Assembly: GCA_003169975.1 (NCBI GenBank)
Contig: PNAA01000031.1
Span: forward strand, 1-42,239
DNA: 42,239 nucleotides
DNA from: Spartobacteria bacterium
GTDB taxonomy: Bacteria; Verrucomicrobiota; Verrucomicrobiia; Chthoniobacterales; UBA10450
Direction: 5' to 3'
Shown here piece by piece: positions 4,286-34,900 of this stretch. A model generated the notes under the pieces. It was not told where the DNA came from and ran no database searches. It saw nothing but the letters and a program-made list of their open reading frames with translations. A program made the position numbers and the translations under genes. The first letter of the stretch is position 1. Each line of letters begins with the position of its first letter.

Positions 4286-4423
4286 CCGACCGGCTTTGTA
4301 GCAACTGGCGCTGGGAACTGCCAAGAAAAAAAACCCGGGGCGACAAGCTTGCAAAATGACCGCGAACTCCGTCATCCTCCGCGAGCGATGCGCAAACCTG
4401 CCGCGGCGACGAGGAGTCACGTA
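4286..4423. promoter_or_regulatory. Divergent intergenic region between HbpS-like and porin genes
   Basis: These 138 bases separate two divergent starts (4285 on minus, 4424 on plus), so promoters for both must lie here or just inside. A strong Shine-Dalgarno GAGGAG at 4411-4416 stands seven bases before the ATG at 4424 and decides the porin start over earlier in-frame ATGs at 4349 and 4388. No confident -10/-35 pair was found by eye. Confidence 0.6.
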
Positions 4424-6550
4424 ATGATTTGCGTGGCTCTTCCGTTGGACGTTGGACGTTGGACGTTAAACGTTGGACGTTTTCTGGTCGGCTTGCTCTT
4501 CATTTCTTCGTCTCTGCGAGCGCAGGATCCCGCTGCCAAAGAAACGTTCAACGTCCAACTGGAAGACGAAAGCGATTCCCTGCGTCTGCGCGATCTCGGA
4601 TCCCAAAGATTCACGCTCGCCCAGATCCAGCGCCTCGCGCCGGATGCGGCCAAGGAAGAGCCCGCGCCATCTCCCTCACCTTCGCCGCCGCCGCCTTTCA
4701 ATCCCGACCCGGGCGCGCCTAACGAGCCGGAATCGATCGAGCCGCCGAGTTTGTTTCCACCGGTCATCCCGCCGCTTCCTCAGTACGGCGAAGAAGCGCT
4801 CCCGCGCTCGCTCGAGCTGCCGCGTCACGACATGCGCGAAATCGTGCCGGACCGGCACAAGCTCGAGTACGAGAATTATCCCGACGCCGCGCACAACCAG
4901 GGTCTCCTGCCCAACTCCCGGGCGGTGCCGAATCGATGGTTCGTCGGCTTCGGACGCTGGAAACGTTATGCCGATCCCTCGACCGAGACGCCCTACCAAT
5001 CAGGCGGTCTGAAACTCTGGCATCCTTATTTGCAGAGCACGCTGAAAGGCGACGCGCCGATCATCGGCGAGGATATTTTTCTTAATCTCACGCTAAGCGA
5101 CTTCTTCCAATTTGAAGCGCGCCGCCTGCCCACTCCCAGCGGCGTGAGCAGCGCGCGGCCGAACAGCTCGGAATTCTTCGGCCGCAGCGAGCAGTATTTT
5201 CTCTCGAACGACGTCTCGATCGGGATTGATCTCTTCCAAGGCGAGACCGCCTTCAAACCGGTCCAATGGGCGCTCCGTTTCCTCGGGGTTTACAACAACA
5301 ACTACACCGACGTGCAGGAGACCAACGTGCTCGATCCCGATCCGCGCCTCGCGAACACGACGCGCTACAAGGATTTCTACGCGCTTCAGGAAGCCTTCGC
5401 CGAGATCCACATCCGCGATCTTTCGAATAACTACGACTTCATTTCCTCGCGCTTCGGCATTCAACCGTTCGTGAGCGATTTTCGCGGCTTCATTTTCAAT
5501 GACTCCAACCTCGGCGTGCGCATCTTCGGCAACTACGACAACAATCGCTGGCAATACAATCTCGCCGCCTTCGAGATGCTCGAAAAGGATACCTACTCGG
5601 ACTTGAACACTTTCGATTCGCGCGATCAGCAGGTCTTGATTGCGAATGTTTTTCGGCAGGATTTTTTCGCCAAGGGCTACACCGCAGAGTTGAGTTTCCA
5701 CGCCGATCTTGACGGCGCGAGCCGGCACTACGACAAGAACGGTTTCATCACCCGGCCGGCGCCGATCGGCAAAGTGCAGGATCATTCCCTGGAGGCGTAT
5801 TACCTCGGGTGGACGGGCGACGGCCACATCGGCTGGCTCAACATCACCCACGCTTTTTATGAGGTCCTCGGGGAGGACAACCTGAACGGCATCGCGGGCC
5901 GGCGGGTCTCGATCAATGCGCAGATGGCGGCGCTCGAACTCTCGATCGACCGGGACTGGCTCCGCCAAAAGATCACGCTCTTTTACGCGAGCGGCGACAG
6001 CAAGCCGAGGGATGGGACCGCCACCGGTTTCGACACGATCATTGACCGGCCTTTTCTTTTTGGCGGACCGTTCAGCTTTTACGTGCACCAGGGCTTCAAT
6101 CTCGCGGGCACGGCGGTGAATTTTAAGCAGCGCGACAGCCTGGTGCCCGATTTTCGCACCAGCAAAACCGAGGGTCAGGCCAACTTCGTCAACCCCGGCG
6201 TGTTCCTCGTCGGTTACGGCCTCGATGCCGATGTCACGCCGAAACTGAAGGCTTTCGTCAACCTGAACTACATCCGGACGATGACCACCGCGGTCACCGA
6301 ACAGGTGCTCTTCACCAATCATGCGAGCAACGATATTGGATTCGATTTCAGCCTCGGATTGCAATGGCGCCCGCTGCTCACCGACAACGTGATCATTAGC
6401 GCGGGCATGGGGTTTCTTGTCCCGGGGCAGGGCTACAAGGATATCTACCGGACTAATACGCGGCCGGTGCCGGGGTTTGGGAATCCCCCGGCCGGGAGTG
6501 TGGATGATTTTCTGTATAGCGGGATTCTTACTGTCACGCTGACCTACTAA
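4424..6550 (+). CDS. Outer-membrane beta-barrel (porin-like) partner of decaheme cytochrome
   Basis: This encodes 708 residues from the ATG at 4424, which has a strong GAGGAG Shine-Dalgarno. The signal peptide (to SSSLRAQD) is unusual: its n-region LPLDVGRWTLNVGRF is encoded by the heptamer array at 4444-4481. A proline-rich linker (about residues 85-125) leads into a long beta-barrel. It shows alternating aromatic and polar strands, many Asn-Asn turns, and a C-terminal strand TVTLTY ending in an aromatic residue, the usual outer-membrane insertion signal. It resembles no named porin that I can identify. The downstream decaheme gene suggests a porin-cytochrome conduit, in which the barrel would sheathe or anchor the cytochrome. 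That role is inferred. An ordinary solute porin is the alternative. Confidence 0.8.
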   Translation: MICVALPLDVGRWTLNVGRFLVGLLFISSSLRAQDPAAKETFNVQLEDESDSLRLRDLGSQRFTLAQIQRLAPDAAKEEPAPSPSPSPPPPFNPDPGAPNEPESIEPPSLFPPVIPPLPQYGEEALPRSLELPRHDMREIVPDRHKLEYENYPDAAHNQGLLPNSRAVPNRWFVGFGRWKRYADPSTETPYQSGGLKLWHPYLQSTLKGDAPIIGEDIFLNLTLSDFFQFEARRLPTPSGVSSARPNSSEFFGRSEQYFLSNDVSIGIDLFQGETAFKPVQWALRFLGVYNNNYTDVQETNVLDPDPRLANTTRYKDFYALQEAFAEIHIRDLSNNYDFISSRFGIQPFVSDFRGFIFNDSNLGVRIFGNYDNNRWQYNLAAFEMLEKDTYSDLNTFDSRDQQVLIANVFRQDFFAKGYTAELSFHADLDGASRHYDKNGFITRPAPIGKVQDHSLEAYYLGWTGDGHIGWLNITHAFYEVLGEDNLNGIAGRRVSINAQMAALELSIDRDWLRQKITLFYASGDSKPRDGTATGFDTIIDRPFLFGGPFSFYVHQGFNLAGTAVNFKQRDSLVPDFRTSKTEGQANFVNPGVFLVGYGLDADVTPKLKAFVNLNYIRTMTTAVTEQVLFTNHASNDIGFDFSLGLQWRPLLTDNVIISAGMGFLVPGQGYKDIYRTNTRPVPGFGNPPAGSVDDFLYSGILTVTLTY
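4444..4481 (+). repeat. Heptanucleotide array, five GTTGRAC-type units (in porin signal peptide)
   Basis: Five 7-base units (four GTTGGAC, one GTTAAAC) plus GTT make 38 bases, preceded by CTCTTCC. Seven-base periodicity gives a seven-residue peptide periodicity across 21 bases. Arrays of the same length occur at 6642-6679 (inverted) and 7082-7119. Two inverted units, GTTCAAC and GTCCAAC, lie just downstream at 4546-4559. Confidence 0.9.
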
Positions 6551-10931: not shown

Positions 10932-13358
10932 TCAAGGCTTCGCCTTCTGCGACGGGGCCGCGGCGCTGAGTTTTTGAAAGCGCGGATCCTTGCGCAGCGG
11001 ATCGAACATCGGATCGAGGCGGAGGAGCGCGGGAGTAATCGGCAGGAGCGAAGCCAGCGCGCCCTCGCACGAGGGCATCGAGAGGAGCTTTTTGATAGCT
11101 GCGATGGCACGATCGGGCTCTCCCAGGCGTGCTGTCACGCGGGCGAGGACTTCAATCGGTGCGGAACTGGCCAACGCGTCTTTCTCGATTGGATTTGCGG
11201 CGATGGCCTGTTCCGCCAAAGCCACGGCGGCAGCCTTGTCGCCCAGGCTCATCGCGATCAGCGCGAGATCTCCCCGCAGGCTATAATTTTCCGGCTGCTC
11301 CTTGAGAAAAGATTCCAGTTCGTGGCGCGCTTCTCGCCAGGTTTCCCTCGCCGCGGTGGTGTCGCCCGCCACTTCTTGCGCCCAGCCTAACCAAAAGCGC
11401 AGTTCGCCATTGAGATAGCCCAAGGCGGGATCCGGCTTGGCCAATATCTCCTTGAGCCGAGGAATGACCGGTGCCGGGTTGCGCTCCAGAATCGCCTGGA
11501 AAAATTGTGTCTCCAACGCCGTGGTATCGTCCGCGGGCGGGTGAAGCGGAGCGAGAATCGCCGCGGCCCGCGGCAGATCGCCCTCGGCTTGTGCGATGCC
11601 CGCCTTGTTCACGAGGGTATCGATGTCGTCCGGCGCGATATTGAGCACCTGATCAAGCTTGCGCAGCGCTTCGGGAAAACGACGCTGGTCGATATAGAAG
11701 AGCGCGTACTGGGTTAATAACTCGACGTTGCGCGGGTCGAGCCGCTCGGCCTCTTTGAAATACGACTCGCACCGCTCCCACTGGCCTCGCCGCCGCGCGA
11801 CATAAGCCAGCCATTCAGGAACTTTGCTGCTATTGGGCAGAAGTGGGCGTGCCTGCTCAAAGTATCGCTCCGCGGTGTCCCAATCTTTCAGGCCGGAGTA
11901 ATAGTAATATCCTTTGGCCATCACGGCCTCGCCGAGATTGGGCTGAAGAGCGAGCGCTGTGTCGGCTGCCCGCTGCGTCTCTGCACGGAGCTCGACCGTG
12001 GGTTGCAGAGTCAGGGTGTCGTATCCGAGCGCATCGACATAGGCCAGCAGCGCCCAACCAAGGGCGAACTTCGGGTCCAACCTAACCGCTTCCCTGAGAT
12101 ATTTCTGTGCGTCAAGGGCGTTGGCGGATGTGTTACCACTCTTCAAGGTATAGGCCAGTCCGCGGAGGTAGGCGGTGTAGGCGTCCGGATTGTCGGTCGG
12201 CCGGGCGGCGATGACTTGCTCCTCCCGCCCGCTGAGGTGCGCGCGCAATTGATCGGCGATGGCTTTGGCGACGTCACTCTCGACTGAGAAGATGTCGGTC
12301 AGTTTGCGATCGAAGGTATCGGCCCAAAGATGGGAGTCATTGGCGGCCTTGATCAACTGCACGTTTACTCGCACGGCTGCGCCGTTCTTCTGCACGCTTC
12401 CTTCCAGGATGTGGGCGACACCAAGTTGTCGGGCGATCTCGGGCAGGTTTTCCGGCGCGCTTTTGTAGTGCTCAGTCGATGTCCGCGAGATCACCTTCAG
12501 ATCGGCGATCTTGGATAAGCGCGTCAGGATTTCGTCCTGGATGCCGTCGGCAAAGTAGGCGTTCGCCTTGTCTTCGCTCAGGTTTTGGAACGGCAGCACC
12601 GCGATCGATTTTTCCGGGATCACCGCGAGTGACGCCGCGGTGGAAGACCCTCTCGAGCCAGACCGATGTGAGAAAATGTAAAATCCCGCGGCGACGGCCG
12701 CGATGACGAGCGCGGCGATCAATGGACGTGACCATCTCGCCGGTTTCGCGTTCGCCCGCGCTGTTTGCGCCTCTCTTGCCTTGCGGAATTTCGCCGGCTC
12801 TTCCGGGTTGCCGAGTTCCTCCGTGTAGAGATTAACGACGGAGACGCGCACGCCGTGTTTCACCTCGCATTCGCCCAGGTCGTGCAGGTGCGGACGCCAT
12901 TCCGGATAATGCTCGAGGTCATCCGCCACATGTTTGGAGAGAAGGATGTGTCCGGCATCGCCGCAATCCATCACGCGCTGCGCCATGTTGATCCCGACGC
13001 CGGCCACGCCCGCCTGCTCGTTCACATCGATGACGCCACTGACCGGCCCGCTGTGCACACCCATGCGTAATTGCAGGTTGGGGTGGTCTTTCAGCGCGCG
13101 GCTGATTTCGAGCGCACATTCCGCCGGCTCTTCCGGGCTCCCGTAGAAAACCAGCGCCATCCCATCGCCCGTGGGAATCTTGATCAGTTTGCCGGCGGCT
13201 TCCGCCGCTTGAAATTCCTCCGTGTTGCGGACGATTTGGATAAGCGTATCGCGCAACGCGCGCTGCTCGCTAATCAGCAGCTTCGAGTAACCGACGATGT
13301 CGCTGAACAAGACATGCGCGATCTCGAGGTGAATTTCTCTTTTAACTTCGGTGGACAT
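10932..13358 (-). CDS. Class III nucleotidyl cyclase with membrane segment, FlgO/TolB-like and TPR domains
   Basis: This encodes 808 residues. Residues 10-180 are a class III cyclase catalytic domain. The metal-binding aspartates are D20 (LFSDIVGYS) and D65 (TGDGMAL), K60 is a candidate base-recognition lysine, and N124 and R128 fit the transition-state pair. The position that is Thr or Asp in typical adenylate cyclases appears to be Gly, so nucleotide preference is uncertain. A single transmembrane segment lies at 212-229. After it comes an IAVLPFQNLSED... ISRTS domain, common in such cyclases, then many TPRs to the C-terminus. The TPR half would lie on the far side of the membrane and may sense a partner. 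It is the last gene of a three-gene operon, starting 12 bases after the decaheme cytochrome stop. Confidence 0.9.
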   Translation of the reverse strand: MSTEVKREIHLEIAHVLFSDIVGYSKLLISEQRALRDTLIQIVRNTEEFQAAEAAGKLIKIPTGDGMALVFYGSPEEPAECALEISRALKDHPNLQLRMGVHSGPVSGVIDVNEQAGVAGVGINMAQRVMDCGDAGHILLSKHVADDLEHYPEWRPHLHDLGECEVKHGVRVSVVNLYTEELGNPEEPAKFRKAREAQTARANAKPARWSRPLIAALVIAAVAAGFYIFSHRSGSRGSSTAASLAVIPEKSIAVLPFQNLSEDKANAYFADGIQDEILTRLSKIADLKVISRTSTEHYKSAPENLPEIARQLGVAHILEGSVQKNGAAVRVNVQLIKAANDSHLWADTFDRKLTDIFSVESDVAKAIADQLRAHLSGREEQVIAARPTDNPDAYTAYLRGLAYTLKSGNTSANALDAQKYLREAVRLDPKFALGWALLAYVDALGYDTLTLQPTVELRAETQRAADTALALQPNLGEAVMAKGYYYYSGLKDWDTAERYFEQARPLLPNSSKVPEWLAYVARRRGQWERCESYFKEAERLDPRNVELLTQYALFYIDQRRFPEALRKLDQVLNIAPDDIDTLVNKAGIAQAEGDLPRAAAILAPLHPPADDTTALETQFFQAILERNPAPVIPRLKEILAKPDPALGYLNGELRFWLGWAQEVAGDTTAARETWREARHELESFLKEQPENYSLRGDLALIAMSLGDKAAAVALAEQAIAANPIEKDALASSAPIEVLARVTARLGEPDRAIAAIKKLLSMPSCEGALASLLPITPALLRLDPMFDPLRKDPRFQKLSAAAPSQKAKP

Positions 13359-13370
13359 TTCGCCGAAGCT

Positions 13371-14852
13371 TCACTGCCGCCGCGCGGTCGCGGCTTTTTG
13401 GCCAAGCCTTGTTTCTGCCGCGGTGAGTGACGCCGGCGCATGGTAGCTGTGGCAGGTGAGGCATTCGGCCACGACTTTTCCTTTTGGGCTGTGGCAGGTG
13501 ACGCAACTGGCTATGCCCGGCATGAGCACATCGGAGGTGAGGCGGCTGCGCGTGGCGTGATGGCACTCGTTGCAAGCGAGGGGCCGGAGCGTATTCGGGT
13601 CGACTTGATGTTTGGCGTGATCGAACCGGGCTCGGAGCATCCAGCGATCGACGAAAATCGGCTTGGCGATGAACGGCGCCTCATGCGCCACCGGTTGCAC
13701 GTCGTGGCAAAGCGCGCAGCCATAAAATAAGGCGCGCACCCGCGGCTCGGTTTCCAGCTGCGGCTTGTAGGGGTCCTTGGTAAAAAAAATCTGGTGCTCG
13801 AAATCTTCGCCCGAATGCACGCGCGCGCGCAATTGCAGCATTTGCCGGGTAACGAAGTTTTTGATCTCGTTAGGCTGGGTGATCCCTTTTCTTGCCGCCA
13901 GCTCCGCGTAATGCGCCGGAAGGCTGAGGAGGAAGCCACGTACCGCCGTCGTGTTGCCATGGGGCAAAGTGAGCTCGGGATTCTTCGGATCGAACTGGAG
14001 CGAATGACAGGCCTGGCACTGTGCCGCGAAAGTGATGCGCTGATTATTGTAACGCCCCTCGGAGTCGGGCTGGTGACAATAATTGCACGCGAGCTTCTTG
14101 CCGCCGACGATCGGGATGTCGGGAGCGAAATGCCGCTCGTGATTAAACTTCAGCGCGTCGCGATCGCGCGCCGGCTCCCGCTTGAGCTGAAATTCCGGAT
14201 GACCATCCCAGAACGAAGGGAAAACCTGGGTGTAACCGTCCACCGGCCGCGGCAAATCGAAGACGATCTGATGGGGCGGGTGGGGATGCCGCTGGAAATT
14301 TGTCCAGTCGAGCTGCCGCCCTTTCAGGGCGGAAGCTGCCATCGTTAGGCGATCGTCGTGGCAGGCGGCGCATTGCGCGCTCGCCACTATTTTCATCGGC
14401 CCGGGGCCGCGATGTTCCTGATGACAGACTGAACACGAGCGATTTTTCACGACGTTCGGCTCGTGAAAGTCGTAGATCCGCTTGTCCTGTTTGAGATGGC
14501 AGGCCGCGCAATTTTTGTCGATCGGGTCAAAGGCAATGCCGTGATGAAACCGATCGCTCAGCACCTTTTGGAATTTGATCGGCCTCAGCCGAGCGTCGGT
14601 CAGCGACGACTTGTCGTGGCAGCTCGCGCATTTTTCGATCAGGGCCGCGTGAGCGGCCGAAAGTTTTCCCGGGTTAAAGAATCTTTCGTCGCCTCTCCTC
14701 TGATAAGCGATGATCGCCGCGAGTCCGACGGAGAGGGCGAGAAAGCTCGCGATGAAACGCGCCGATCGCCACAAGTGGGCCTTGCGGTAATAGCCGAGAT
14801 TGCCTTGGTATTTCTCGGCGATCTGCTTCTGCGTCCTTCGGGGCGTGGCCAT
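13371..14852 (-). CDS. Membrane-anchored decaheme c-type cytochrome
   Basis: This encodes 493 residues. One uncleaved transmembrane helix at about 31-50, after a basic cytoplasmic tail, anchors a periplasmic domain. That domain has ten CXXCH sites, the first at residues 75, 115, 140 and 161 and the last three clustered near 437, 458 and 470. Histidine-rich segments such as HHGIAFDP, HPHPPH and FNHERHF could supply distal ligands, as in doubled-CXXCH and c7-type cytochromes. The start lies six bases after the cytochrome-b-like stop, and a cyclase follows. The likely role is to receive electrons from the membrane protein and pass them through the periplasm. Direction and partners are inferred. 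Confidence 0.92.
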   Translation of the reverse strand: MATPRRTQKQIAEKYQGNLGYYRKAHLWRSARFIASFLALSVGLAAIIAYQRRGDERFFNPGKLSAAHAALIEKCASCHDKSSLTDARLRPIKFQKVLSDRFHHGIAFDPIDKNCAACHLKQDKRIYDFHEPNVVKNRSCSVCHQEHRGPGPMKIVASAQCAACHDDRLTMAASALKGRQLDWTNFQRHPHPPHQIVFDLPRPVDGYTQVFPSFWDGHPEFQLKREPARDRDALKFNHERHFAPDIPIVGGKKLACNYCHQPDSEGRYNNQRITFAAQCQACHSLQFDPKNPELTLPHGNTTAVRGFLLSLPAHYAELAARKGITQPNEIKNFVTRQMLQLRARVHSGEDFEHQIFFTKDPYKPQLETEPRVRALFYGCALCHDVQPVAHEAPFIAKPIFVDRWMLRARFDHAKHQVDPNTLRPLACNECHHATRSRLTSDVLMPGIASCVTCHSPKGKVVAECLTCHSYHAPASLTAAETRLGQKAATARRQ

Positions 14853-14858
14853 CGGCTC

Positions 14859-15773
14859 TCAGTAATAAAACAGGGTCACAAACGCATGCCATGCGGTGAG
14901 CATGAGGAGGAGAAAGGAAAAAGGCACATGCACGAAAAGCCAGGCGTGCAGCCAGTGGTGCAACCGGATTTGCAAATCGAGCAGCCGGCGCTGATCGCAC
15001 CACGCCTGCATTTCTTCGAGCCGGCTGTGATACGCTTCCGTCACCCGGAGTCTTACGAAACGGAAGGCGTCGTCCGAATAAGCGTTGTCGCCGAGCCGAA
15101 ACCCTCGGCCGCGCCGCGCCTTGAGATAAGGCATGACTTGTTCTTCGAGAAACGCGACGAGCGCGGTCTCCGATTCGGCGTCGACGGCTGAAGGGCTCGC
15201 CGCAGTCTTCTGGGGCGCGGCCGACTTGAAGGCGTGGCACATCTTTTCCGCCGCGCGAAAGAGCTGCGCGCGAATGTGCGGGATTTGTTCGTAGACGGTT
15301 TCGGCGGGCAATCGCTCTTGCATGACGCGGGGCATCCGGTTTTGCAGGAACAATCCGTAGATGCCGCTCACCATGACCACGCTGTAAAACACCATGAGCA
15401 GAGTGGTCATCGGCCCGCCGAGCCGAAAGCCGCTGTGCAGGAGAACGAGCGGGATGGTGAGCAGGGTGAGCCAGATGTGAGCGCGCAGCCAGCGTTGCAC
15501 GCTGCCGATGGGCCAGAGGACCACTCTTTTGCGCAGGCTGAGGAGCGCGCCAAAAATAAAAATCGCGAATGAAACCGCGCCGAAAATCAAACCGACGGGA
15601 GTGCCGCCGATGCTGCGATGTTCCGATGTCTTTTGCACGAGCGCCGAGGGCAAACTCAGCCGGGGGGGTAACCGCGCCGGATAAAAATTTTCCACATAGA
15701 TCCAGCCGGCGGCGATGGTCGCCAGCACGACAAAGAGGAACCAGGGAACGTGCGCGCGATTAAGAATTCGCAT
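14859..15773 (-). CDS. Cytochrome-b-like integral membrane protein
   Basis: This encodes 304 residues with about five transmembrane helices at roughly 10-27, 60-80, 97-117, 124-144 and 279-300. Two helices carry histidines with 13 residues between them (H99 and H113, H282 and H296). This is the spacing expected for two bis-histidine b hemes stacked across the membrane. A 130-residue hydrophilic, helical loop separates helices 4 and 5. The protein probably exchanges electrons with the quinone pool or the cytoplasmic side and delivers them to the decaheme cytochrome encoded six bases downstream. I cannot assign it to a named cytochrome b family. Ferric-reductase-like or di-heme b-type subunits are the closest ideas. 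Confidence 0.8.
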   Translation of the reverse strand: MRILNRAHVPWFLFVVLATIAAGWIYVENFYPARLPPRLSLPSALVQKTSEHRSIGGTPVGLIFGAVSFAIFIFGALLSLRKRVVLWPIGSVQRWLRAHIWLTLLTIPLVLLHSGFRLGGPMTTLLMVFYSVVMVSGIYGLFLQNRMPRVMQERLPAETVYEQIPHIRAQLFRAAEKMCHAFKSAAPQKTAASPSAVDAESETALVAFLEEQVMPYLKARRGRGFRLGDNAYSDDAFRFVRLRVTEAYHSRLEEMQAWCDQRRLLDLQIRLHHWLHAWLFVHVPFSFLLLMLTAWHAFVTLFYY

Positions 15774-15987: not shown

Positions 15988-17151
15988 GTGAGCGATGGAG
16001 CGTTTTACCGGTGGGCGGCCTGCGGGGCGATCGCCGTTTATCTGGCCGGGAACCCGGCCGCAGCAGGAAACACCGTCCCGCTTCAGACTGGCCAATTTGT
16101 CGGAACGGCCGGTTGCAAATCGTCCAGTTGCCACGGCGGGGCCGGCGAAAAGCGCAGCCAATATTTCACCTGGGTGCAGCAGGATTTTCACGCACGGGCT
16201 TATGCGGTCCTGGTCGACGCCCGCTCGGCGCGGATGGCCGAGACCCTTTCCTTGCCGGCCGCGCAAACGAGCGAACGCTGCACGGTTTGTCATTCCCCGT
16301 TGCAATCGGTCGCCCCCGCGCGCCTCGCGAAAACCGCCCGCGTCGATGAAGGCGTCTCCTGCGAAAGTTGTCACGGGGCCGCCGGGCCATGGCTCCGCGG
16401 GCACACCCGCAAAGACTGGAGTTACGCCACCCGCGTGACCGCCGGGATGCACGATCTCCGCAACTTCTACGTCCGCGCGAATACCTGCGTCGCCTGCCAC
16501 CAGAATCTTGCTCCGGAACTTCTGCAGGCCGGCCATCCGGAACTCATCTTCGAGTTGGATGGCCAGTCGGTCGCGGAGCCGGAGCACTGGAAGGACGATG
16601 ATCCGGCACGTGGCCCGCGCGCGTGGCTGGTCGGGCAGGCGGTCGCACTGCGCGAGATGAGTTGGGCGCTCGCGCAAAATGAGACGGTCGACTCGGAAAG
16701 CGTGAACCGTTGGCAGGGGCTCGCCTGGCTGCTGGCCAAAGCCACAGCCACCCAATCGCACCTGCCGCTTATCGCCCCGCCCGGCGAGTCAACCAGCCAC
16801 GCCTTGTTTGTCAGCGTGCAGGAACAGGCGGACTCGCTCGCGCGGCGCGCCGCGGTCGATCCGTGGAACGATGCCTTTGCCGCCACGGCCCTGCGCGCGC
16901 TGGCTTCTGCCGACGCGGATTTCGTCCCAGCAAAAAACATCTCTGCGGACCTGCTTTTTCGTCGCGCGCGGAGACTCGTTCTCGCGCTCGATCGCCTCTC
17001 CCGCGCGACGCAACAGCAGCCATTGGGCGCGACGAAGAATCCCGCACTTTCCCCCCTTTTCGAGGACCTCCGGTTGCAAGCCGATTTTCAGCCCGCGAAA
17101 TTTGCGGCCGATCTGGTAACTTTTCGCACGACAATGGAACGCTCGCCGTAA
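15988..17151 (+). CDS. Tetraheme c-type cytochrome, cytochrome c554-like
   Basis: This encodes 387 residues from a GTG at 15988, the start that preserves the signal peptide (to NPAAAG). Four heme sites are seen: a CX4CH at 43-49 followed by GG, then CXXCH at 98, 125 and 167. Surrounding residues (QDFHARAYAVL, EGVSCESCHG, LQAGHPELIFELD) match the widespread c554-like multiheme family. The C-terminal half lacks heme sites and is mostly helical. It is a periplasmic electron carrier or redox enzyme. The gene heads the plus-strand operon and is followed 101 bases later by the NuoE-NuoF fusion, so it probably shares an electron pathway with that protein. Confidence 0.88.
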   Translation: MSDGAFYRWAACGAIAVYLAGNPAAAGNTVPLQTGQFVGTAGCKSSSCHGGAGEKRSQYFTWVQQDFHARAYAVLVDARSARMAETLSLPAAQTSERCTVCHSPLQSVAPARLAKTARVDEGVSCESCHGAAGPWLRGHTRKDWSYATRVTAGMHDLRNFYVRANTCVACHQNLAPELLQAGHPELIFELDGQSVAEPEHWKDDDPARGPRAWLVGQAVALREMSWALAQNETVDSESVNRWQGLAWLLAKATATQSHLPLIAPPGESTSHALFVSVQEQADSLARRAAVDPWNDAFAATALRALASADADFVPAKNISADLLFRRARRLVLALDRLSRATQQQPLGATKNPALSPLFEDLRLQADFQPAKFAADLVTFRTTMERSP

Positions 17152-17252: not shown

Positions 17253-19307
17253 ATGGATACCGAACGGCTGACTTTGTATGCTCCGGTGCTCGTTCCGGCG
17301 TTGCACCGCATTCAGGACGAATTCGGCTACCTCAAGCCAGAGGCTCTCGCGGAGTTCTCGAAAGAGTCGGGTGTGCCGCAGTATCGGCTTCAGGCGGTGG
17401 CCAGTTTCTTTCCCCATTTTCTGCTCACACCGCCCAAGAAAGTCGTGCTGCGAGTCTGCCGCGATCTGTCGTGTCACCTGGCCGGGTCCGGCAAAATGCT
17501 GCCGGAATTGGACGCGCTCACGGGCGAACACGTCGCGGTCGAAGGCGTGTCGTGTCTGGGCCGCTGCGACCGCGCGCCGGCCGCGTGCCTCTCGGTCCAG
17601 GGCTCGGAACACGAACACTATTATCTGGCCCGCTCGAGTGATGAGTTGAAGGCCATCGTCGCGGCCACTCTCCAGGGTGCGCCACCCGCGCCGGACCATG
17701 ATATCGATCGCAGTTTTCTGGGCGATGACGCCATCATCGATCCCTACAAAGGAGAAGCACCAGACTATCGGGCGGTGCGCGCCGCGATCGCGGCCCGTGA
17801 CGCCTCGTTAGGCACGGCGATGAAATTACTCTCGGCCAGGCCGGAGTGGACTCTGGGAATGCTGGAGAAGTTTCGCATCGCGGCCATTCGCCAAATGCGA
17901 GTCGATTTCGAAATGGAGCCGGCCATTCGCGAGGCGGTCCGCTCCTGGCAGACGGAAGGCGAATGGGCGAAAGGTCCGGAGTTAGGTGGATGGTCGGACA
18001 TCCTTCTCAATGAGATCCGCGACGCCGATCTCCGCGGATTAGGCGGTGCGGGAATTCCCGCGGTGCAAAAATGGCAGGACGTACGAGACGCCGTCCGGAA
18101 AGCCCGCCAGCGGGAGTCGGACGATCGGGCGTTTATCGTGGTCAACGGCGACGAGAGCGAACCGGGCACGTTCAAGGACCGCGAGCTTCTCCTCCGCACC
18201 CCGCACCTGGTCGTCGAAGCGGTCATCCTGGCGAGTCTGATCACCGAGGCCACTCAGGGTTTCATCTACATCCGCCATGAGTACGCCGAACAAATCGAGG
18301 CGTGTCGGCGCGAGATTCGGCGCGCGGAGCAACTTGGCCTCTGCGGCGAGAATGCGATGGTGCTCGGCCGGTCTTTGCCCATTGCTGTGTTCGTTAGTCC
18401 GGGGGGTTACATTTGCGGGGAACAAAGCGCGCTCATCGAAGCCATGTCGGATCGGCGCGGCGAGCCGCGCAACATGCCGCCGAAATTGGAGACGAATGGG
18501 TTGAACGATCTCCCGACGCTGGTGAGCAATGTGGAAACCTTTGCCTGGGTTCCTTTTGTCTGCCTGCGCGGCGGCAAAACCTACGCCGCCCAAGGCGTGA
18601 ATGGTTGGAAAGGTCGCCGAATATTCTCGGTCTCAGGAGACGTCAAGCGCCCGGGTGTCTATGAGGTCCCCATGGGACTCACCCTGCGCGAACTGATTTA
18701 CGGCGAGCAGTATTGTCGCGGGATCGCGGGCGATAAGAAGCTCAAAGGTTTTGCCCCCTCGGGCCCATCCGGTGGATTTCTTCCCGCAAAACTTACACCG
18801 GGTAAGGGCTTGCCGCGCGACCACACGAACAATAAGAGCTGGCAGGCGCTGGCCACTCGACGCGGGTTTGATCCGGCCTCGGCTGAACTCGACATCCTCG
18901 ATCTCGAGCTGGAGTTAAATCTTTTCCGCGCCCTAAGTCCTACCCAGGCGCTGGGCGCCGGGTTAACCGTTTATGCAGAGGGACGGGACATGGCTGAGCA
19001 AGCCGTCAATTCGGTGGAGTTCTTTCGCAATGAGTCATGCGGCAAATGTGTGCCGTGCCGGCTGGGATCGCAGAAAATGGCGTCGCTCGGATCCCATTTG
19101 CTGAGTGGCAAGATTCAAGCGGCCAGCTGGAAGAATGAAATTCTGCCGCTCATTAAAGAAATGGGGACAGCGATTGAGTTAGCCTCGATCTGCGGGCTGG
19201 GACGGTCGGTCCCGATTCCTCTCAAGACGGCAGCGGCCTTTTTTGAGGAAGATGTGACCAAACATTTGTCAGAGAATGGGGCGGCCCCTGCCGCCAAACC
19301 TGGATAG
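17253..19307 (+). CDS. NuoE-NuoF fusion: NADH-oxidising flavin/iron-sulfur subunit
   Basis: This encodes 684 residues. Residues 1-145 are a NuoE-like thioredoxin fold with the [2Fe-2S] pattern CX4C (C69, C74) and CX3C (C101, C105). From about 165 it is NuoF-like. The FMN loop GLGGAG is at 262-267, the nucleotide segment GDESEPGTFKDRELL at 299-313, and YICGEQSALIEA near 386. The [4Fe-4S] ligands are CX2CX2C at 596, 599 and 602 plus C647. The expected role is oxidation of NADH (or NADPH) in the cytoplasm and transfer of single electrons to the Fe-S chain. A 65-residue insert precedes the FMN loop, unlike standard NuoF. No other complex I genes are present. The next gene starts three bases after the stop, so they almost surely form a complex. 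Confidence 0.93.
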   Translation: MDTERLTLYAPVLVPALHRIQDEFGYLKPEALAEFSKESGVPQYRLQAVASFFPHFLLTPPKKVVLRVCRDLSCHLAGSGKMLPELDALTGEHVAVEGVSCLGRCDRAPAACLSVQGSEHEHYYLARSSDELKAIVAATLQGAPPAPDHDIDRSFLGDDAIIDPYKGEAPDYRAVRAAIAARDASLGTAMKLLSARPEWTLGMLEKFRIAAIRQMRVDFEMEPAIREAVRSWQTEGEWAKGPELGGWSDILLNEIRDADLRGLGGAGIPAVQKWQDVRDAVRKARQRESDDRAFIVVNGDESEPGTFKDRELLLRTPHLVVEAVILASLITEATQGFIYIRHEYAEQIEACRREIRRAEQLGLCGENAMVLGRSLPIAVFVSPGGYICGEQSALIEAMSDRRGEPRNMPPKLETNGLNDLPTLVSNVETFAWVPFVCLRGGKTYAAQGVNGWKGRRIFSVSGDVKRPGVYEVPMGLTLRELIYGEQYCRGIAGDKKLKGFAPSGPSGGFLPAKLTPGKGLPRDHTNNKSWQALATRRGFDPASAELDILDLELELNLFRALSPTQALGAGLTVYAEGRDMAEQAVNSVEFFRNESCGKCVPCRLGSQKMASLGSHLLSGKIQAASWKNEILPLIKEMGTAIELASICGLGRSVPIPLKTAAAFFEEDVTKHLSENGAAPAAKPG

Positions 19308-19310: not shown

Positions 19311-21845
19311 ATGCCACAAGGTTCGGATTTCGTTGCCGGTTTATTCGTTCGTGACGACGACGAAGGGTTATTCAGCCGCGACATCAATGGACAACTCGTC
19401 CGGCTGGATACGCCGACGGAGTCCGACTACGAAAAGGATGTTACTCTGCAGATCGATGGTTTGCCGGTGACGGTGCCCTTGGCCGAGCCGTTAACTGATG
19501 CCAACGGCAATATCGTGGTCGACTTGGAAGGGCGCACGACCCCGCGGTACACCACGATTTATGACGCGGCGCGGAAGCTTTACGTTGAGCAGATAGGTGA
19601 CGAAAAGAAGATCCCGATTCCGGTTTTGTGCCATCAGCCGCATATGACTCCGGTGGCGGTCTGCCGCCTTTGCATCGTCCAGATCTACGGCCAAAAGCGC
19701 GGTCGCCGGGCGGCGGAGCGCAAGCTGCTGCCTGCCTGCCAGCACCAGGTCAAGGAAGGGATGGAAGTTTTCACCATGAATGCCCCCGGCCCCGATGGCG
19801 ATCGGGTCCGCCAGACCGTGAAGGTGATGACCGAACTGTTGGCGGCCGACCATTTGAAGCCGGCGAAACCTCCTGAGCTGGAGAAAGAGTTCTCGCAATT
19901 CAATGAGCTCGGCCAGATGACGCAACGATGCGGGGCCGACCCCTCGCGCTTCAAGCTGGAGATCCTGTCGAACCCGCCACCGCCCGCACGGCCCAACGCC
20001 GGCCGGCGCGAAGCCGATTCTTCCTCGCCCGTCTTCCTCGTCGATCACAGCGCCTGTATTCTCTGCGATCGCTGTGTGCGCGCCTGTGATGATGTCCGGG
20101 AGAACCACGTCATCGGGCGGACGGGCAAAGGCGCGACGACTGGGATTGGATTCGATCTCAACGTGCCGATGGGGCAATCGACCTGCGTGCAATGCGGCGA
20201 ATGCATGGTGTCCTGTCCGACGAGCGCCATCACCTTTAAACCCGTCGCGGAAGTGAAGATTCTCGGGCAGAGCCGATCCGCCGAAGTGTTGACGGCGCGC
20301 GAACTGACTTCCGATCCTGTCTTCGCGGGCATTCCACCAAAGTTCTTGCTCTGGCAGCGCGGCTTGGTCATTCGTCGAAGAGTTAGAGCTGGCCAGGTCT
20401 TGTGCCGCCAGGGAGATCCGGGTAACACCGCGTTCATTATCCGCGACGGCCGGTTCAGGGTAAAAATTCTGCCCAAGCCGTCAGGGGCCGGCAGCGGTCT
20501 GTCATGGTTGGGTCGCCCGAAGCCCATTATCAGGCAGCGGACTCCAGCCGATGTGATTATCGGCGAAATGGCCTGTTTGAATGGAACACCACGCACGGCC
20601 GATGTTACGGCACTGGAAGATGGCGAGGTCTGGGAGATCCGCCGCAACGTGCTCGACCGGCTCATGCGCCTCCCCAGTCAGCGCCAGAGATTTGAGAGCG
20701 AATATCGTAAGAGCTCTTTGGACCTGGCGTTGCAAAACATGGACCTGTTCAGTGACATCGTGCGGGAAGAATACGGCCGGATCGTGGAGTTCCTGCGGCA
20801 ACGACTAACCTTCGTCCGCGTGCAACCGGGTCAAACTCTCTTCAAAGAGGGCGAGATAGCGACTCGTTTGTATCTCATCCGCCTCGGCCACGTCCGGGTC
20901 GGTGTGCAACAGCATGGCAAGGAAGCCAAGATTATCACCAAAGGTCCCGGCACCATTCTGGGAGAGATCGGATTGCTTGCTCTTTCCCTCGATGACGAGC
21001 GAAAAACGGTCGAAGAAATCGACCGCGCCTTGAAGTATAAGCTCGATCAGGCCGGGGACGACTTGACCGCCGTCCTTCCGCCCGGGGTACGCAGCGCGAC
21101 CTGCTCGGCCTTGAATCAGCTCGAGCTGGCGCAACTTAGTCGGGCCGACTTTCTCGAGATGCTGCGCAAGTTCGGCGTCTTGCGCCGCAGGATCGTCGAG
21201 CAATCTCTCGCCCGTTTGTACAGCTCGACCGTGGGTCACCGGATCCTCGACGACTACGTCGAGCAGGGTCTCTATGAAGGTCAGAGCATTCTGGTGCTCG
21301 ACCTGGATAACTGCACACGCTGCGACGCCTGCACCAGGGGCTGTGTCGAGCGCCATGGGACGGAGACCCACGGCATCCCCATCCCGCGCCTGCTCCGAGC
21401 CGGGCGACGGCTCGATAATTTCCTGGTCGCTACCTCCTGCCGGTCCTGCACGGATCCACATTGCATGGTCGGATGTCCCGTCGACTCCATTCATCGCGGC
21501 AAGCACCTCCAAATCGTCATCGAAGACCACTGTATCGGGTGCGGTCTGTGCGCCGAAAACTGCCCCTACGGCAGCATTTTCATGATACCTAACGAACGAA
21601 AGCCAGTTTCCCTGCCCGACCCGGAGCACGCCGGGCGAACTCACTTCGTCGGTCAGCTGAAGGCCGCCAACTGCGACCTGTGCGACGCACACGGGGACCT
21701 CTCCGCGCCACGTCCGGCCTGCGTCGCGGCCTGTCCGCATGATGCGGCCTTTCGCATGACCGGGCCGCAACTGCTCGAGCGCGTGATGGGAGCGCATGCC
21801 GAAGACCTGGCCGCGGCTGGCCTGCGTGGCCGCATGACCGCCTGA
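19311..21845 (+). CDS. NuoG-N-like / double cNMP-binding / four-cluster ferredoxin fusion protein
   Basis: This encodes 844 residues, no signal peptide, cytoplasmic. The order of parts is as follows. A NuoG-type [2Fe-2S] domain has C107, C118, C121 and C143. The His-Cys cluster region that normally follows has lost its cysteines. Two [4Fe-4S] sites lie at C249-C259 and C292-C302. Two cyclic-nucleotide-binding domains follow (about 345-455 and 480-625), each with a phosphate-binding cassette that keeps Glu and Arg (E419/R428 and E552/R594). The second has an insert of about 35 residues. Last is a DmsB/PsrB-like ferredoxin with four cysteine quartets (from 668, 710, 741 and 788). It could carry seven Fe-S clusters. 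It likely relays electrons from the NuoEF fusion under cNMP control. The output partner is unknown. Confidence 0.93.
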   Translation: MPQGSDFVAGLFVRDDDEGLFSRDINGQLVRLDTPTESDYEKDVTLQIDGLPVTVPLAEPLTDANGNIVVDLEGRTTPRYTTIYDAARKLYVEQIGDEKKIPIPVLCHQPHMTPVAVCRLCIVQIYGQKRGRRAAERKLLPACQHQVKEGMEVFTMNAPGPDGDRVRQTVKVMTELLAADHLKPAKPPELEKEFSQFNELGQMTQRCGADPSRFKLEILSNPPPPARPNAGRREADSSSPVFLVDHSACILCDRCVRACDDVRENHVIGRTGKGATTGIGFDLNVPMGQSTCVQCGECMVSCPTSAITFKPVAEVKILGQSRSAEVLTARELTSDPVFAGIPPKFLLWQRGLVIRRRVRAGQVLCRQGDPGNTAFIIRDGRFRVKILPKPSGAGSGLSWLGRPKPIIRQRTPADVIIGEMACLNGTPRTADVTALEDGEVWEIRRNVLDRLMRLPSQRQRFESEYRKSSLDLALQNMDLFSDIVREEYGRIVEFLRQRLTFVRVQPGQTLFKEGEIATRLYLIRLGHVRVGVQQHGKEAKIITKGPGTILGEIGLLALSLDDERKTVEEIDRALKYKLDQAGDDLTAVLPPGVRSATCSALNQLELAQLSRADFLEMLRKFGVLRRRIVEQSLARLYSSTVGHRILDDYVEQGLYEGQSILVLDLDNCTRCDACTRGCVERHGTETHGIPIPRLLRAGRRLDNFLVATSCRSCTDPHCMVGCPVDSIHRGKHLQIVIEDHCIGCGLCAENCPYGSIFMIPNERKPVSLPDPEHAGRTHFVGQLKAANCDLCDAHGDLSAPRPACVAACPHDAAFRMTGPQLLERVMGAHAEDLAAAGLRGRMTA

Positions 21846-21871: not shown

Positions 21872-23872
21872 TTATTTTTCCGATAGCTCAATGATTCCGT
21901 TCCAATTTTCTATCTTGTCCTGGCGTGACAGGGTCGCAATCTTTCGTAGATAAAACTCGACAGGGCCGTCCGTGCCGCCCCGCAGTTCACGGGTACGGCT
22001 CATTAGCTCGGCGGCCTTGGAAAAGTCGCCCACCCGAAAGGTCTCCAGCCCCGCTTCGAAAACTTCAATCCAAGCCCGCTCACCTGCCTCTGCCCCAGAG
22101 CGACAGAGCAGCTCGTGAATGACTACGCCATGTGTCTTGCCGGCGACCCGAAATTCTCCCAGGCGCCGGGTGATAAATTTACTGTCCAGCTGTTGGCGGA
22201 CAGAGTCGGAAATCAAGACTTGGGTACCGAGATACTTGTTCAGTGACTCAAGGCGGGAGGCAAAGTTTGTCGTATCTCCGATCATCGTATAATCAAACCG
22301 GAACGAAGAGCCGAGATTGCCCGCCAGCACTTTGCCGCTATTGACTCCAACCCGCGTCCGCAATTTTTTCCCCCTCACTTCCATTTCGCTGAGACACCGA
22401 AGGTCGCAGGCCGCCTCCGCGGCGCGAATGGCGTGCGCTGGCTCATCGACCGGCGCGCCCCAGGCCGCCATCACCGCGTCACCGACATATTTGATGATCG
22501 TGCCCTTGTTCTCGAGAATGCAGCGCGTGGTTTGCTCGAAATAGGCAATCAAGATCGCGGAAACCTCCGCCGGGTCCAGGTCTTCGGACAAGGTCGTAAA
22601 GTTTTCCAGATCGGTAAAAATCACCGTAGCCTCGACAACTTTGCCACCTGGCCGGAGATCGAAATCAGAGTTGGCAATCCTATCCGCCATTTGCGGCGAG
22701 AGATAGAAACCGAAAGCCTTGCGCAACTCCTTGCGACGGCGCGATTCGAGGAGGTATTGCGAGCCAACGCTCCAGGTCAGGCCAAACGGTATTTGCACCG
22801 CCACGGGAATCAGCCAGGCAAACCAGATGCGTTGGTGCCAGACAAGGAAGCAGGCAGCGCACGCCATGCCGGCGGAGATAATGACCGCCAAAAGAGTCGC
22901 CGGGATGGGTCGCAAGAAACTGAGGCCGCCGGCTAAGAGACCGATGAGGACGATCAGGGCAGTCTCTCGATTCAACGCTATGCGCGTGAGCCAGTCGCCG
23001 CGCAGCAAATTCAGCAGGATGGTGGCATGAACTTCGGTCCCGGGAGTAAATTGGTGATTCGACCTCGAGTAGGGCGTGCTGAATTCGTCTCTCTGGACTT
23101 TTTGGCCACCAAGAGCGAGCTGTCCACCAACGAGGACGATTTTGTTTTTGAAAAAATCAGGAGGAACCCCGTTCGGCGTAAGCGCCTGCGCAATGCTCAC
23201 GGAGGAAAAGGTCCCGCACGGACCGTAGTAATTCACCCAGTGCGGCTTCAGGGTGTCTCGTGTCTCGCCGGTCATCTTTGCTCCGAGGAATTTGGCGGCT
23301 TCCCAAGTAGCCTCCGCTTTGACACTGTTGCCGAAATAGATGTGCCGCACTCCGTAATCGGGATCGACCGGCCTGAAGGCCAGAAGGCCCCAACTGGCCG
23401 CGGCTTTGCGCAATAGCTTGATCGGCGGCGAAACGCTCTCCGATCTCACGCCCTGCCGTTCCTTGAGATCGAGCGCCGCGCCCAGAATCACTCTCCCATT
23501 CTTGCGCATGGAATCCGCGAAAGCGACATCGGCGGTGGGATCGGGGGCGGGCTGGTCGAAGACAATATCGTAGAAGACCACGCGCGCCATATCCTCAGTG
23601 AGGCGATTCAGCAGGGCGACGTGCAGCGCCCGGTTCCAGACGTCGTCCAGTGGTTGGTTCAACTGTTTCGCGGAATACTCGTCGAGATAGACGAGGACGA
23701 CTTCGTGGGTGTCGATAGGAGCGCGCCAGAGGAAAGGCAGATCATAGCTTTGCCGGACCAACGGCTCGGCGAAAGAGTAGCGCAGGCAGGCGAGGCCTAA
23801 CCCCACGGCAATCAACGCGCCGGCTGCGATCGTTAGGCCGCGGGTCAGATGCCTGATCTGGCGAATCTGCAT
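21872..23872 (-). CDS. CHASE2-domain class III adenylate cyclase
   Basis: This encodes 666 residues. A first transmembrane helix at about 12-30 leads to a CHASE2 extracytoplasmic sensor domain (about 35-300), then three transmembrane helices (about 303-372). The class III cyclase domain is at about 410-560. The metal aspartates are D421 (IFTDLENFT) and D465 (YVGDAVMA). K461 and T529 fit adenine selection of the class IIIb type, and N536 and R540 are the transition-state pair, so cAMP production is likely. A short C-terminal TPR-like tail follows. The gene starts 57 bases after the FecR-TPR-barrel gene, and FecR and CHASE2 cyclases are often neighbours. It converges with the cNMP-binding Fe-S gene, 26 bases apart. 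Confidence 0.93.
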   Translation of the reverse strand: MQIRQIRHLTRGLTIAAGALIAVGLGLACLRYSFAEPLVRQSYDLPFLWRAPIDTHEVVLVYLDEYSAKQLNQPLDDVWNRALHVALLNRLTEDMARVVFYDIVFDQPAPDPTADVAFADSMRKNGRVILGAALDLKERQGVRSESVSPPIKLLRKAAASWGLLAFRPVDPDYGVRHIYFGNSVKAEATWEAAKFLGAKMTGETRDTLKPHWVNYYGPCGTFSSVSIAQALTPNGVPPDFFKNKIVLVGGQLALGGQKVQRDEFSTPYSRSNHQFTPGTEVHATILLNLLRGDWLTRIALNRETALIVLIGLLAGGLSFLRPIPATLLAVIISAGMACAACFLVWHQRIWFAWLIPVAVQIPFGLTWSVGSQYLLESRRRKELRKAFGFYLSPQMADRIANSDFDLRPGGKVVEATVIFTDLENFTTLSEDLDPAEVSAILIAYFEQTTRCILENKGTIIKYVGDAVMAAWGAPVDEPAHAIRAAEAACDLRCLSEMEVRGKKLRTRVGVNSGKVLAGNLGSSFRFDYTMIGDTTNFASRLESLNKYLGTQVLISDSVRQQLDSKFITRRLGEFRVAGKTHGVVIHELLCRSGAEAGERAWIEVFEAGLETFRVGDFSKAAELMSRTRELRGGTDGPVEFYLRKIATLSRQDKIENWNGIIELSEK

Positions 23873-31939: not shown

Positions 31940-34900
31940 TCACGGCAGGACATAAGCCTCGACCAGCGCGACGCCGGTGGTGTTGTTTTTGCCGCGGACG
32001 ATCGCGGTGTAGTTACCGGGGTTGAGCGTCGCGACGATGGCTGATTCGCGTGGGTCGGTCGGCGGGACTGTGGTGTCGATGATCTGCTGCTTTTGGTCGC
32101 TTTCCCAATCGTCGTTCGATTGAAGCAAGACGGCATTCACGTCCCGCAGTTCCAGCGTCGTATCCTGCAAGGCGCCAGCGACTCCCAGCGCGGTCAGCTC
32201 CGGTCCAATGGCCCGCACCAGGATGTTGGAGGCTGTGCTGCCTCCAACAATGAATCCGCCGATCATGACGTTGTCGTCGGTTTGCACTTTGCCGCGAGTC
32301 GATATGTTGGCCAGGTGTGACTCGCTTGAAATATCCAGGCTGGCCGTGCCCAGGTCATAAACTTCAACCAACCCGATGCCGGTCGAGGCGTTCTTTCCGC
32401 TGACAATGACGGTGTAAGCCCCGCTGCCGGGGATTTTCGGGTCGAGGGGCGCGAGCGTGGCCACGATGGCTGATTCGAGGTCATTGGTTGGCGGAATGGT
32501 GGTATCGATGATCTCCTGTTCCTGCGTATCGCGCCAGTTATCATTAGCGCTGAGGAGCCCGTTGCTGTCGTGCAGCTCAAGAGTCGGATCCTGGAGAGTT
32601 CCTGTTACCGGTAGGGAGGGTCCGATGGCGCGAATGATGACTTTCTTGGGCGCGTTGCCGGTGACAATAAAGCCGCCGATCAGGACGTCGCTGCTCGTGC
32701 CGACGGCGAGCCGGGTCGAAATGTTGACCGCACCAGTAGGAGTCAGGACAAAGAGCAGTGGAATGGTGCTCGTGCCATGAGAGTTAGTGGCAAAGAGTTG
32801 CACATTGGTCACGATGCCACCCGAGAGTTTGGGGCCTGGCACATTGCCGAGACGGCTTTGGAACATCCCCGAAATCGTGCCCGTAGCCTGGTGGAAGCTG
32901 AGCCCCGATGGCAGGGTGCCGACGAGGGCGAAGGTGACCGGGTCACCCGAGTCTGAGCTTGGCGCTACAATTGTGTAGCTAAAGGGTTGACCTGAAACAA
33001 GAGCCGTCTGGCTCGGACTGACGATGACCGGAATTGTAGTATCGGAGGTGAAGGTCAGCTCCAAGGTCGCCGTGGTCGTCAGGTTGCCGTCAGTCACGGT
33101 GAGAGATACCTTAAAGCTTCCTTCCGATGTGGGCGTTCCGGAAATCTGGCCCGTGACCGGATCAAAGCTCAAACCGGGCGGCAAACCGCTCGCACTCAGT
33201 CGCGCTGCGGCGGTGCCCCCGCTTGTGATCACCTGAAAGCTAAAGAAAAGCGCAGGGCGGCCGGTCGCGCTCGTGCTGCTGATGATGACCGGACCGGAGG
33301 CGGGCGCGGGCTGGATGGTGAGTGTAAGGGTGGCGTTCGTAGTGCCGCCCGCGTTGGAAGCGCTCAGCATGATCTGAGAGGTTCCTGCCACAGTTGGAGT
33401 GCCGACAATCGCGGAAAGCGAAGGGTCGAAAGTCAATCCCGCGGGCAGATTGCTTGCCGCCAGGGAGGTCGCCCCCATCGCCACGAATTGATAGACGAAC
33501 TGCTGGCCGACGGTGCCAGCGGCGGTCAAGGGACTAATAATGACCGGCGGAGCTATGGCTACATCGAGGGTCAAGGTTGCATTACCGGTGCCGCCGGTGT
33601 TCGTGGCGCTCAGGTTGACGGTAAAAGTTCCCGAGGCCGAGGGCGTCCCGCTGATGAGTCCAGAACTGGTATTAACGGTCACTCCCGCTGGAAGGCCGGT
33701 CGCGTCGAAACTCGTCGGCGAATTCGTCGCCGTGATCTGATAGGTGAAGGGCTGCCCTATTGTTGCCATGGTAGACAAGGGACTTGTGATGACAGGAAGA
33801 GCCATGGCGACATCGAGCGATAAAGTCGCGCTGCCAGTGCCGCCCGGGTTAGTGGCGCTCAGGCTGACTGAGAAGGATCCGGCAGCAGAAGGTGTTCCAC
33901 TGATTACTCCAGTGCCAGTATCAACCGTTAATCCCGCCGGCAACCCGGTCGCGTTGAAGCTGGTCGGCGCGTTAGTCGCCGTGATTTGGTAGCTGAATGC
34001 CTGGCCAACAGTGGCGGTTGCCGTCGCAGGACTGGTGATGACCGGAGGAGGTGGGTTGACGGTCAGGGTTAAGGGAGCCGCGCCAGTGCCGCCCGCATTG
34101 GTTGCGCTCAGGGTGATCGAGAAAATTCCTGGGGCCGCCGGCGTTCCGCTGATCAGCCCGGTGGAAGTATTCACGGTTAGATTCGCGGGCAGCCCGGTCG
34201 CACCAAAACTCGTCGGGTTGAGCGTCGCGGTGATTTGGTAGCTGAATGCCTGGCCAACGGCGCCAGTTGCGGTCGAAGGACTGGTGATGACCGGTGGAGG
34301 CGGGTTTACGGTAAGGGTTAGCGGAGCCGTGCCGGTGCCACCTGCATTGGTTGCGCTCAGAGTGATCGAGAAAGTTCCTGCGGCCGATGGCGTTCCGCTG
34401 ATCAGCCCGGTGGAAGTATCCACGGTTAGGTTCGCGGGCAGCCCGGTCGCATCAAAGCTGGTCGGGTTGTTGGTCGCGGTAATTTGGTAGCTGAATGCCT
34501 GGTTAACGGCGCCAGTTGCGGTCGAAGGACTGGTGATGACCGGAGGAGGTGGGTTGACGGTAAGGGTTAGCGGAGCCGTGCCGGTGCCACCTGCATTGGT
34601 TGCGCTCAGAGTGATCGAGAAAGTTCCTGCGGCCGATGGCGTTCCGCTGATCAGCCCGGTGGAAGTATCCACGGTTAGGTTCGCGGGCAGCCCGGTCGCA
34701 CCAAAGCTCGTCGGATTGTTAGTCGCCGTGATTTGGTAGCTGAATGCCTGGTTAACAGTGGCGGTTGCGGTCGAAGGACTGGTGATGACCGGAGGAGGTG
34801 AGTTTACGGTGAGGGTTAACGGAGCCGTGCCGGTGCCACCTGCGTTGGTTGCGCTCAGGGTGATCGAGAAAGTTCCTGCGGCCGACGGCGTTCCGCTAAT

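Follow-up and report, generated by a model that had tools for sequence, protein, structure and literature searches.

A conserved iron-sulfur adapter with tandem cyclic nucleotide-binding domains as a candidate link between NADH and a trans-envelope heme conduit in a Spartobacteria bacterium

What is connected by a protein that carries iron-sulfur clusters in both of its halves and two cyclic nucleotide-binding (CNB) domains in between? The question is raised by an 844-residue protein encoded in a 42,239-nucleotide stretch of DNA from a Spartobacteria bacterium of the Verrucomicrobiota (assembly GCA_003169975.1, contig PNAA01000031.1), which was analysed as a whole and is called here the window. 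The ATG of its gene stands 4 bases past the stop codon of a gene for a fusion of NuoE and NuoF (NuoEF). We propose that this protein, hereafter the adapter, links NADH to a heme conduit that crosses the cell envelope, with the CNB pair controlling the coupling, and we give this reading a probability of about 0.6.

An initial annotation of the window had described the adapter as an unusual fusion of two electron-carrying halves with the two CNB domains between them. This description holds across the family: all 28 cluster cysteines are invariant in 35/35 aligned full-length sequences (34/34 for the last four, one row ending at a contig edge), and the domain order is conserved as well. The alignment comprises the window, locus L072 and 33 usable loci (frame longer than 700 aa) among the 43 adapter loci L017-L059; the other ten were taken as contig-end cuts or as frames masked by an opposite-strand frame, and the unrelated frames L002, L003, L006 and L073 were excluded. 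A family search for the domain order, which had been suggested as a check, recovers it in Chthoniobacterales-type Verrucomicrobia loci at 57-78% identity and in Planctomycetota, Gemmataceae among them, where the best segment is 32-40% identical. Because the order is conserved in two bacterial phyla, the fusion is neither a product of chance nor an assembly join, and a frame artefact is ruled out for the same reason. The reading frame and the domains of the adapter are thus confirmed as real and conserved.

Pfam places Fer2_4 at residues 43-156, ferredoxin families at about 244-310, two cNMP_binding stretches (E 4e-32) and ferredoxin families again at about 704-812. The first half resembles the N-terminal modules of NuoG, HoxU and FdhA, which likewise have a [2Fe-2S] cluster, two [4Fe-4S] sites and a NuoEF partner; residues 43-349 of the structure model match Aquifex NuoG (7q5y_A) with Z 16.2 and a root-mean-square deviation (rmsd) of 2.9 over 208 aligned residues. 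Unlike these proteins, the adapter has neither a His-Cys cluster nor a molybdopterin-type or hydrogenase domain, and carries the CNB pair and a four-cluster half instead. The loss of the NuoG His-Cys cluster, seen already in the initial annotation, extends to the whole set, its motif being absent from 29/29 aligned sequences; C207, which lies in the former His-Cys region, is not conserved (C in 15/35). This loss need not break the electron path, because in complex I the [2Fe-2S] cluster N1b passes electrons to N4 before N5. The second half shares its four [4Fe-4S] quartets, in their usual pattern, with DmsB, NrfC and HycB subunits, and profile comparison matches it to HycB3, HycB4 and formate hydrogenlyase subunit 2. 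It differs from these subunits in sharing one chain with CNB domains and an input module, and in having a diheme cytochrome b, not NrfD, as its neighbour. The adapter misses the NCBIfam cut-offs of both parent types, scoring 46.1 bits against 470.05 for TIGR01973 (NuoG) and 49.8 bits against 214.1 for TIGR02951 (DmsB/NrfC type).

The CNB region scores 110.4 bits against PF00027 (gathering cut-off 27.5) in two stretches, and its best profile and fold matches are the regulatory domains of PKA and PKG. The tandem arrangement is thus alike by profile and fold, whereas here an electron carrier, not a kinase, would be controlled. One of the two domains resembles ligand-bound CNB structures with Z of about 18 (model residues 458-642 against 4muv_A: Z 18.4, rmsd 3.1, 142 aligned). 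The Glu and Arg by which CNB domains contact the phosphate of their ligand are intact in both adapter domains, a point absent from the initial annotation, and their conservation (Table 1) suggests that a ligand is really bound. Either cAMP or cGMP could fill this role; because the position just after that Arg differs between sequences (T, A, S, N and others), we make no call on a preference between the two.

Two further groups of sequences touch on the adapter. A locus labelled Riflebacteria (L029, JACQZM010000063.1) holds an adapter and a NuoEF that are 57-60% identical, through transfer or on a mis-binned contig. Among the Planctomycetota genomes drawn, frames of about 950-1280 aa (e.g. in G663, G529 and G605) match adapter residues 64-313 only, at about 50%, and are possibly formate-dehydrogenase-type proteins near the NuoG-like part.

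Table 1. Features of the adapter and of the genes around it (positions in the window)
Feature	Position	Strand	Basis
HbpS-like tandem heme-binding-type protein	1913..4420	-	PF03928 in the homolog of locus L023
Probable outer-membrane beta-barrel, 733 aa, C-terminal ...TVTLTY	4349..6550, true start uncertain	+	gene adjacency
Decaheme cytochrome with LVIVD repeats, 1281 aa	7062..10907	+	10 CXXCH; homolog comparison
Class III nucleotide cyclase homolog with TPR repeats	10932..13358	-	PF00211, 33 bits
Predicted membrane-anchored periplasmic decaheme cytochrome	13371..14852	-	10 CXXCH; location from sequence
Membrane-bound diheme cytochrome b, probably anchoring the adapter	14859..15773	-	conserved His, helical model
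Predicted secreted tetraheme cytochrome, c554 family	15988..17151	+	PF13435; one CX4CH, three CXXCH; location from sequence
NuoE-NuoF fusion (NADH, FMN, [2Fe-2S], N3 [4Fe-4S])	17253..19307	+	Pfam; cluster Cys
CNB/Fe-S adapter, 844 aa	19311..21845	+	ATG start, Pfam, alignment of homologs
NuoG-type [2Fe-2S] cysteines C107, C118, C121, C143	19629..19739	+	invariant 35/35; Fer2_4
Two ferredoxin-type [4Fe-4S] quartets, C249/252/255/259 and C292/295/298/302	20055..20216	+	invariant 35/35
First CNB domain (E419, R428)	20376..20669	+	PF00027; E and R 35/35
Second CNB domain (E552, R594), insertion inside the phosphate-binding cassette	20808..21140, limits approximate	+	PF00027; E 35/35, R 34/35
DmsB/HycB-like half, four [4Fe-4S] quartets: C668-678, C710-722, C741-751, C788-808	21312..21734	+	invariance, profile matches
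CHASE2 class III nucleotide cyclase	21872..23872	-	PF05226; PF00211, 91 bits

Halves of the DmsB/PsrB type normally dock to a membrane subunit such as NrfD, and the initial annotation had noted that no such partner is encoded in the window. For NrfD itself this is correct: the two NrfD genes of the genome lie on other contigs (C58 and C52), which makes NrfD an unlikely partner of the adapter, and each has its own ferredoxin-type match close by. The wider claim that the half lacks any encoded membrane partner does not stand, as the cluster holds a cytochrome b and a decaheme cytochrome, both upstream on the opposite strand. The cytochrome b carries two HX13H pairs, H99/H113 and H282/H296, which are invariant in 35/35 rows (29 distinct genes, six rows being the same gene fetched twice) and are predicted to bind heme; a 20-sequence alignment and a helical structure model with a predicted local distance difference test score (pLDDT) of 83 are available for it. 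Two HX13H helices that stack two hemes across the membrane are the pattern of the NADPH oxidase/ferric reductase family. Such proteins and the cytochrome b have these helices and a cytoplasmic NAD(P)H input in common; the cytochrome b differs from them in that no sequence match or clear fold match is detectable and that an Fe-S adapter stands between flavin and heme. Its homolog in Sphingobium gives a sub-threshold match to PF01292. The gene is present in 27/43 adapter loci and, in other Verrucomicrobia, lies directly beside a short CNB-ferredoxin gene, a short form of the adapter, in 9/9 loci. Because the cytochrome b is found both in the cluster and beside the short adapter, it is the likely membrane partner of the four-cluster half. 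In two short-adapter loci of the same bacterial family (L065:7984-9300 and L066:8691-10070) the homologous frames have 438-459 residues, compared with 304 in the window.

The remaining redox proteins of the cluster are conserved down to their cofactor ligands. The cluster cysteines of NuoEF (C69/74/101/105 and C596/599/602/647) are invariant in 31/31 sequences, and the gene lies upstream of the adapter in 39/43 loci, the other four beginning at a contig edge. All ten heme sites of the anchored decaheme cytochrome are invariant (27/27), as are those of the tetraheme cytochrome (25/25), whose gene is the first of the cluster on the plus strand.

If the adapter receives electrons from NADH, what becomes of it in genomes with a different input? 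Among 13 genomes compared, only two have a full NuoEF, and these are the two in which the adapter includes the NuoG-like part; nine of the other 11 have ordinary NuoF-type matches only (about 34%), and two have none. In the clusters of the short adapters at L068 and L069 we find an FNR-type FAD/NAD(P)H reductase with a 2Fe-2S domain, at L069 directly before the adapter, and an FNR-type reductase and a short adapter are arranged in the same way in G307. Sphingobium herbicidovorans carries on its plasmid pMSHV the gene for a single chain (WP_231568103.1) that joins a Pyr_redox-type domain to two CNB domains and a four-cluster half, and the locus also encodes homologs of the cytochrome b (26%), the decaheme (27%), the tetraheme (36%), the HbpS-like protein (30%), the barrel (39%) and the LVIVD decaheme (46%). 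Among the matches listed in the plasmid search, those beyond Sphingobium covered only the NuoG-like part and were mostly named formate dehydrogenase. The CNB and four-cluster half is therefore the constant part of the system, and the module for NAD(P)H input can be swapped: NuoEF with a NuoG-like part, an FNR-type reductase, or a fused flavoprotein. That three unrelated NAD(P)H modules stand on one constant core is the best evidence that the core passes electrons from NAD(P)H to the cytochrome b.

Some branches carry an additional domain. At L067:4154-7824 an FNR-type reductase with an FHA domain neighbours a short adapter with an extra N-terminal stretch, and the Sphingobium decaheme (L107:9225-11024) has an FHA-like N-terminus, hinting at control by phosphorylation in these branches.

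The outer part of the conduit was traced into the window by way of a Ca. Udaeobacter locus (L021), whose relative of the LVIVD decaheme has LVIVD, C3 and C7 matches in Pfam. The window protein matches the family of Geobacter ExtM (NF040943, a selenite/tellurite operon family) far below its cut-off (E 1.7e-19, 69.6 bits, cut-off 800), and differs by the added LVIVD repeats. The gene for the 733-aa protein adjoins that for the LVIVD decaheme across phyla, as a conserved pair. No Pfam family was found for the homologs of this probable barrel, and no NCBIfam family for the window protein. Outer-membrane barrels as a rule end in an aromatic residue, and so does this protein. The HbpS-like protein recurs beside the pair in Planctomycetota and in Sphingobium.

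In two phyla, genomes hold the adapter together with the LVIVD decaheme far more often than expected by chance. LVIVD decaheme homologs are found in 41/43 adapter-bearing genomes. Among 387 genomes drawn evenly from the phylum of the window, 11 have an adapter-like protein, 11 the LVIVD decaheme and nine both (p 6e-15 in a Fisher test, which ignores kinship); the two genomes with only the decaheme (G045 and G307) both have a short-type adapter nearby. Among 294 Planctomycetota genomes, 30 have the C-terminal half of the adapter, 33 the LVIVD decaheme and 21 both (p 5e-17, again irrespective of kinship).

The operon in the window is flanked by two class III cyclase genes (Table 1), and both are found again in L021. 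Elsewhere in the same genome, outside the window, eight PF00211 matches lie within about 20 kb (G000:C20:39359-59159), apparently as class III cyclase genes in tandem. Positions 31940-37855 of the window encode a large repeat protein of the surface type (1971 aa) in which 'DGKILVGG' and Ig-like segments recur.

Together these parts outline a possible electron path. On the cytoplasmic side, the adapter and NuoEF would take hydride-derived electrons from NADH, which would run from NADH through FMN, N3, the [2Fe-2S] cluster and the two [4Fe-4S] clusters to a junction under CNB control and then to the four [4Fe-4S] clusters. The onward path would lead through the two hemes b and the ten hemes c of the anchored decaheme to the tetraheme cytochrome and the LVIVD decaheme with its barrel at the outer membrane. 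Most likely, the CNB pair would bind cAMP or cGMP and thereby permit or block transfer between the NADH-facing and the membrane-facing clusters. What the sequences show is the gene set, the conservation of cofactor ligands and CNB contact residues, the swapping of the input module on a constant core and the genomic co-occurrence; that the proteins form a complex, which way the electrons flow, that the last carriers lie at the outer surface, and that the CNB pair binds a ligand and gates the flow are the steps that we infer here. A bolder form of the proposal would make the adapter a wire switched by a second messenger: the ligand would move the two cluster sets into or out of tunnelling range, the flanking cyclases would toggle electron export within seconds and without transcription, and the CNB and four-cluster core would serve Verrucomicrobia, Planctomycetota and Alphaproteobacteria as a general, regulated docking point for different NAD(P)H dehydrogenases. 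We hold this form to be tentative and would sooner bet against it than for it.

Several observations weigh against a CNB-controlled link from NADH to the heme conduit. The AlphaFold2 model of the adapter is poor (mean pLDDT 65, predicted template modelling score 0.52) with low-confidence cluster loops, and the continuity of the wire is not measurable on it. The cytochrome b has no clear family or PDB match in Pfam, NCBIfam, PDB sequence, PDB profile, Foldseek or VIA-align comparisons, the fold comparison returning weak rows only (e.g. SpNOX 8qq7 at E 4.2 and STEAP1 8ucd_A at Z 6.1), and four loci with at least 5 kb available upstream (L018, L020, L022 and L030) are without it in the fetched stretch. 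Beyond the kinship that the Fisher tests leave aside, 12 of the 33 Planctomycetota decaheme genomes miss the C-terminal half of the adapter at E 1e-30; the surroundings of 11 of these 12 were fetched, and an adapter was found nearby in three (G442, G481 and G583), while the others showed none within the fetched stretches, some of which are short. Cyclase neighbours are rare as well: matches of the CHASE2 type occur in 7/43 loci, and the genome of the window itself holds 24 cyclases, so the flanking genes are suggestive only and too weak to serve as proof of regulation. Finally, the second Glu/Arg pair is kept in only 2/7 short adapters and lost in 5/7, and two working CNB sites are therefore not needed throughout the superfamily.

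The last two points also favour a reading in which electrons take the same route and the CNB domains serve as a scaffold or in assembly, or hold a ligand for stability only, with no regulation of the flow. A pure scaffold would not need conserved Glu and Arg residues, whereas the first pair is kept in 35/35 full-length and 6/6 readable short sequences, and the second in 34/35 full-length ones; this contrast between the pairs in the short forms also marks the first site as the more essential. We consider the scaffold reading unlikely, though it deserves to be kept in mind. Electrons might instead run inward, from an extracellular or periplasmic donor through the outer cytochromes, cytochrome b, adapter and NuoEF to NAD+. 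A decaheme and barrel set is usable in either direction, and in other enzymes NuoEF-type modules work reversibly. This route is nevertheless improbable: the same core is fed by three unrelated NAD(P)H modules, of which the FNR and Pyr_redox types are usually NAD(P)H-oxidising reductases, and the uphill reduction of NAD+ without coupling to a proton gradient needs a donor of very low potential. A quinone oxidoreductase of the complex I or DmsB/NrfD kind, in which the four-cluster half would dock to an NrfD encoded elsewhere and reduce quinone, seems very improbable to us. It is suggested by the DmsB/HycB-like character of that half and the presence of two NrfD genes in the genome; these genes are on other contigs with ferredoxin-type matches of their own, and the gene conserved beside the adapter encodes a cytochrome b. 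We thus retain the adapter as a probable CNB-controlled link between NADH and the heme conduit.

How does such a system relate to those already described? He et al. 2017 (PMC5615132) reported porin-multiheme cytochrome c clusters in freshwater Verrucomicrobia, with homologs in Ca. Udaeobacter and Opitutus, and proposed them for extracellular electron transfer. These clusters and the window are both verrucomicrobial combinations of barrel and multiheme genes, and their host lineages and labels overlap. The periplasmic cytochromes of the published clusters have eight conserved heme sites against ten in the window, and in the part of the paper available to us the inner-membrane step is labelled 'ET in IM' only and no NADH module, CNB protein or cytochrome b is named. 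Likened by description and overlap of host lineages, the window probably belongs to this kind, the porin-multiheme clusters probably being the outer part of the present system. We found no published description of a CNB/Fe-S fusion in an electron conduit in a literature search by title and opening of the abstract that covered part of the matches; a further paper (PMC5585712), so far as its accessible part goes, is unrelated to such a conduit.

If the proposal is true, the adapter and its partners would provide the inner-membrane half that had been missing from a trans-envelope conduit of bacteria common in soil, namely Udaeobacter-type Verrucomicrobia and Gemmata-type Planctomycetota. Named carriers of the adapter module, Sphingobium herbicidovorans with its plasmid, Zavarzinella formosa and Limnoglobus roseus, make the idea testable now. 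Trans-envelope conduits could then draw on NAD(P)H rather than quinol, and the presence of the CNB pair suggests that the export of electrons may be under direct allosteric control by a cyclic nucleotide.

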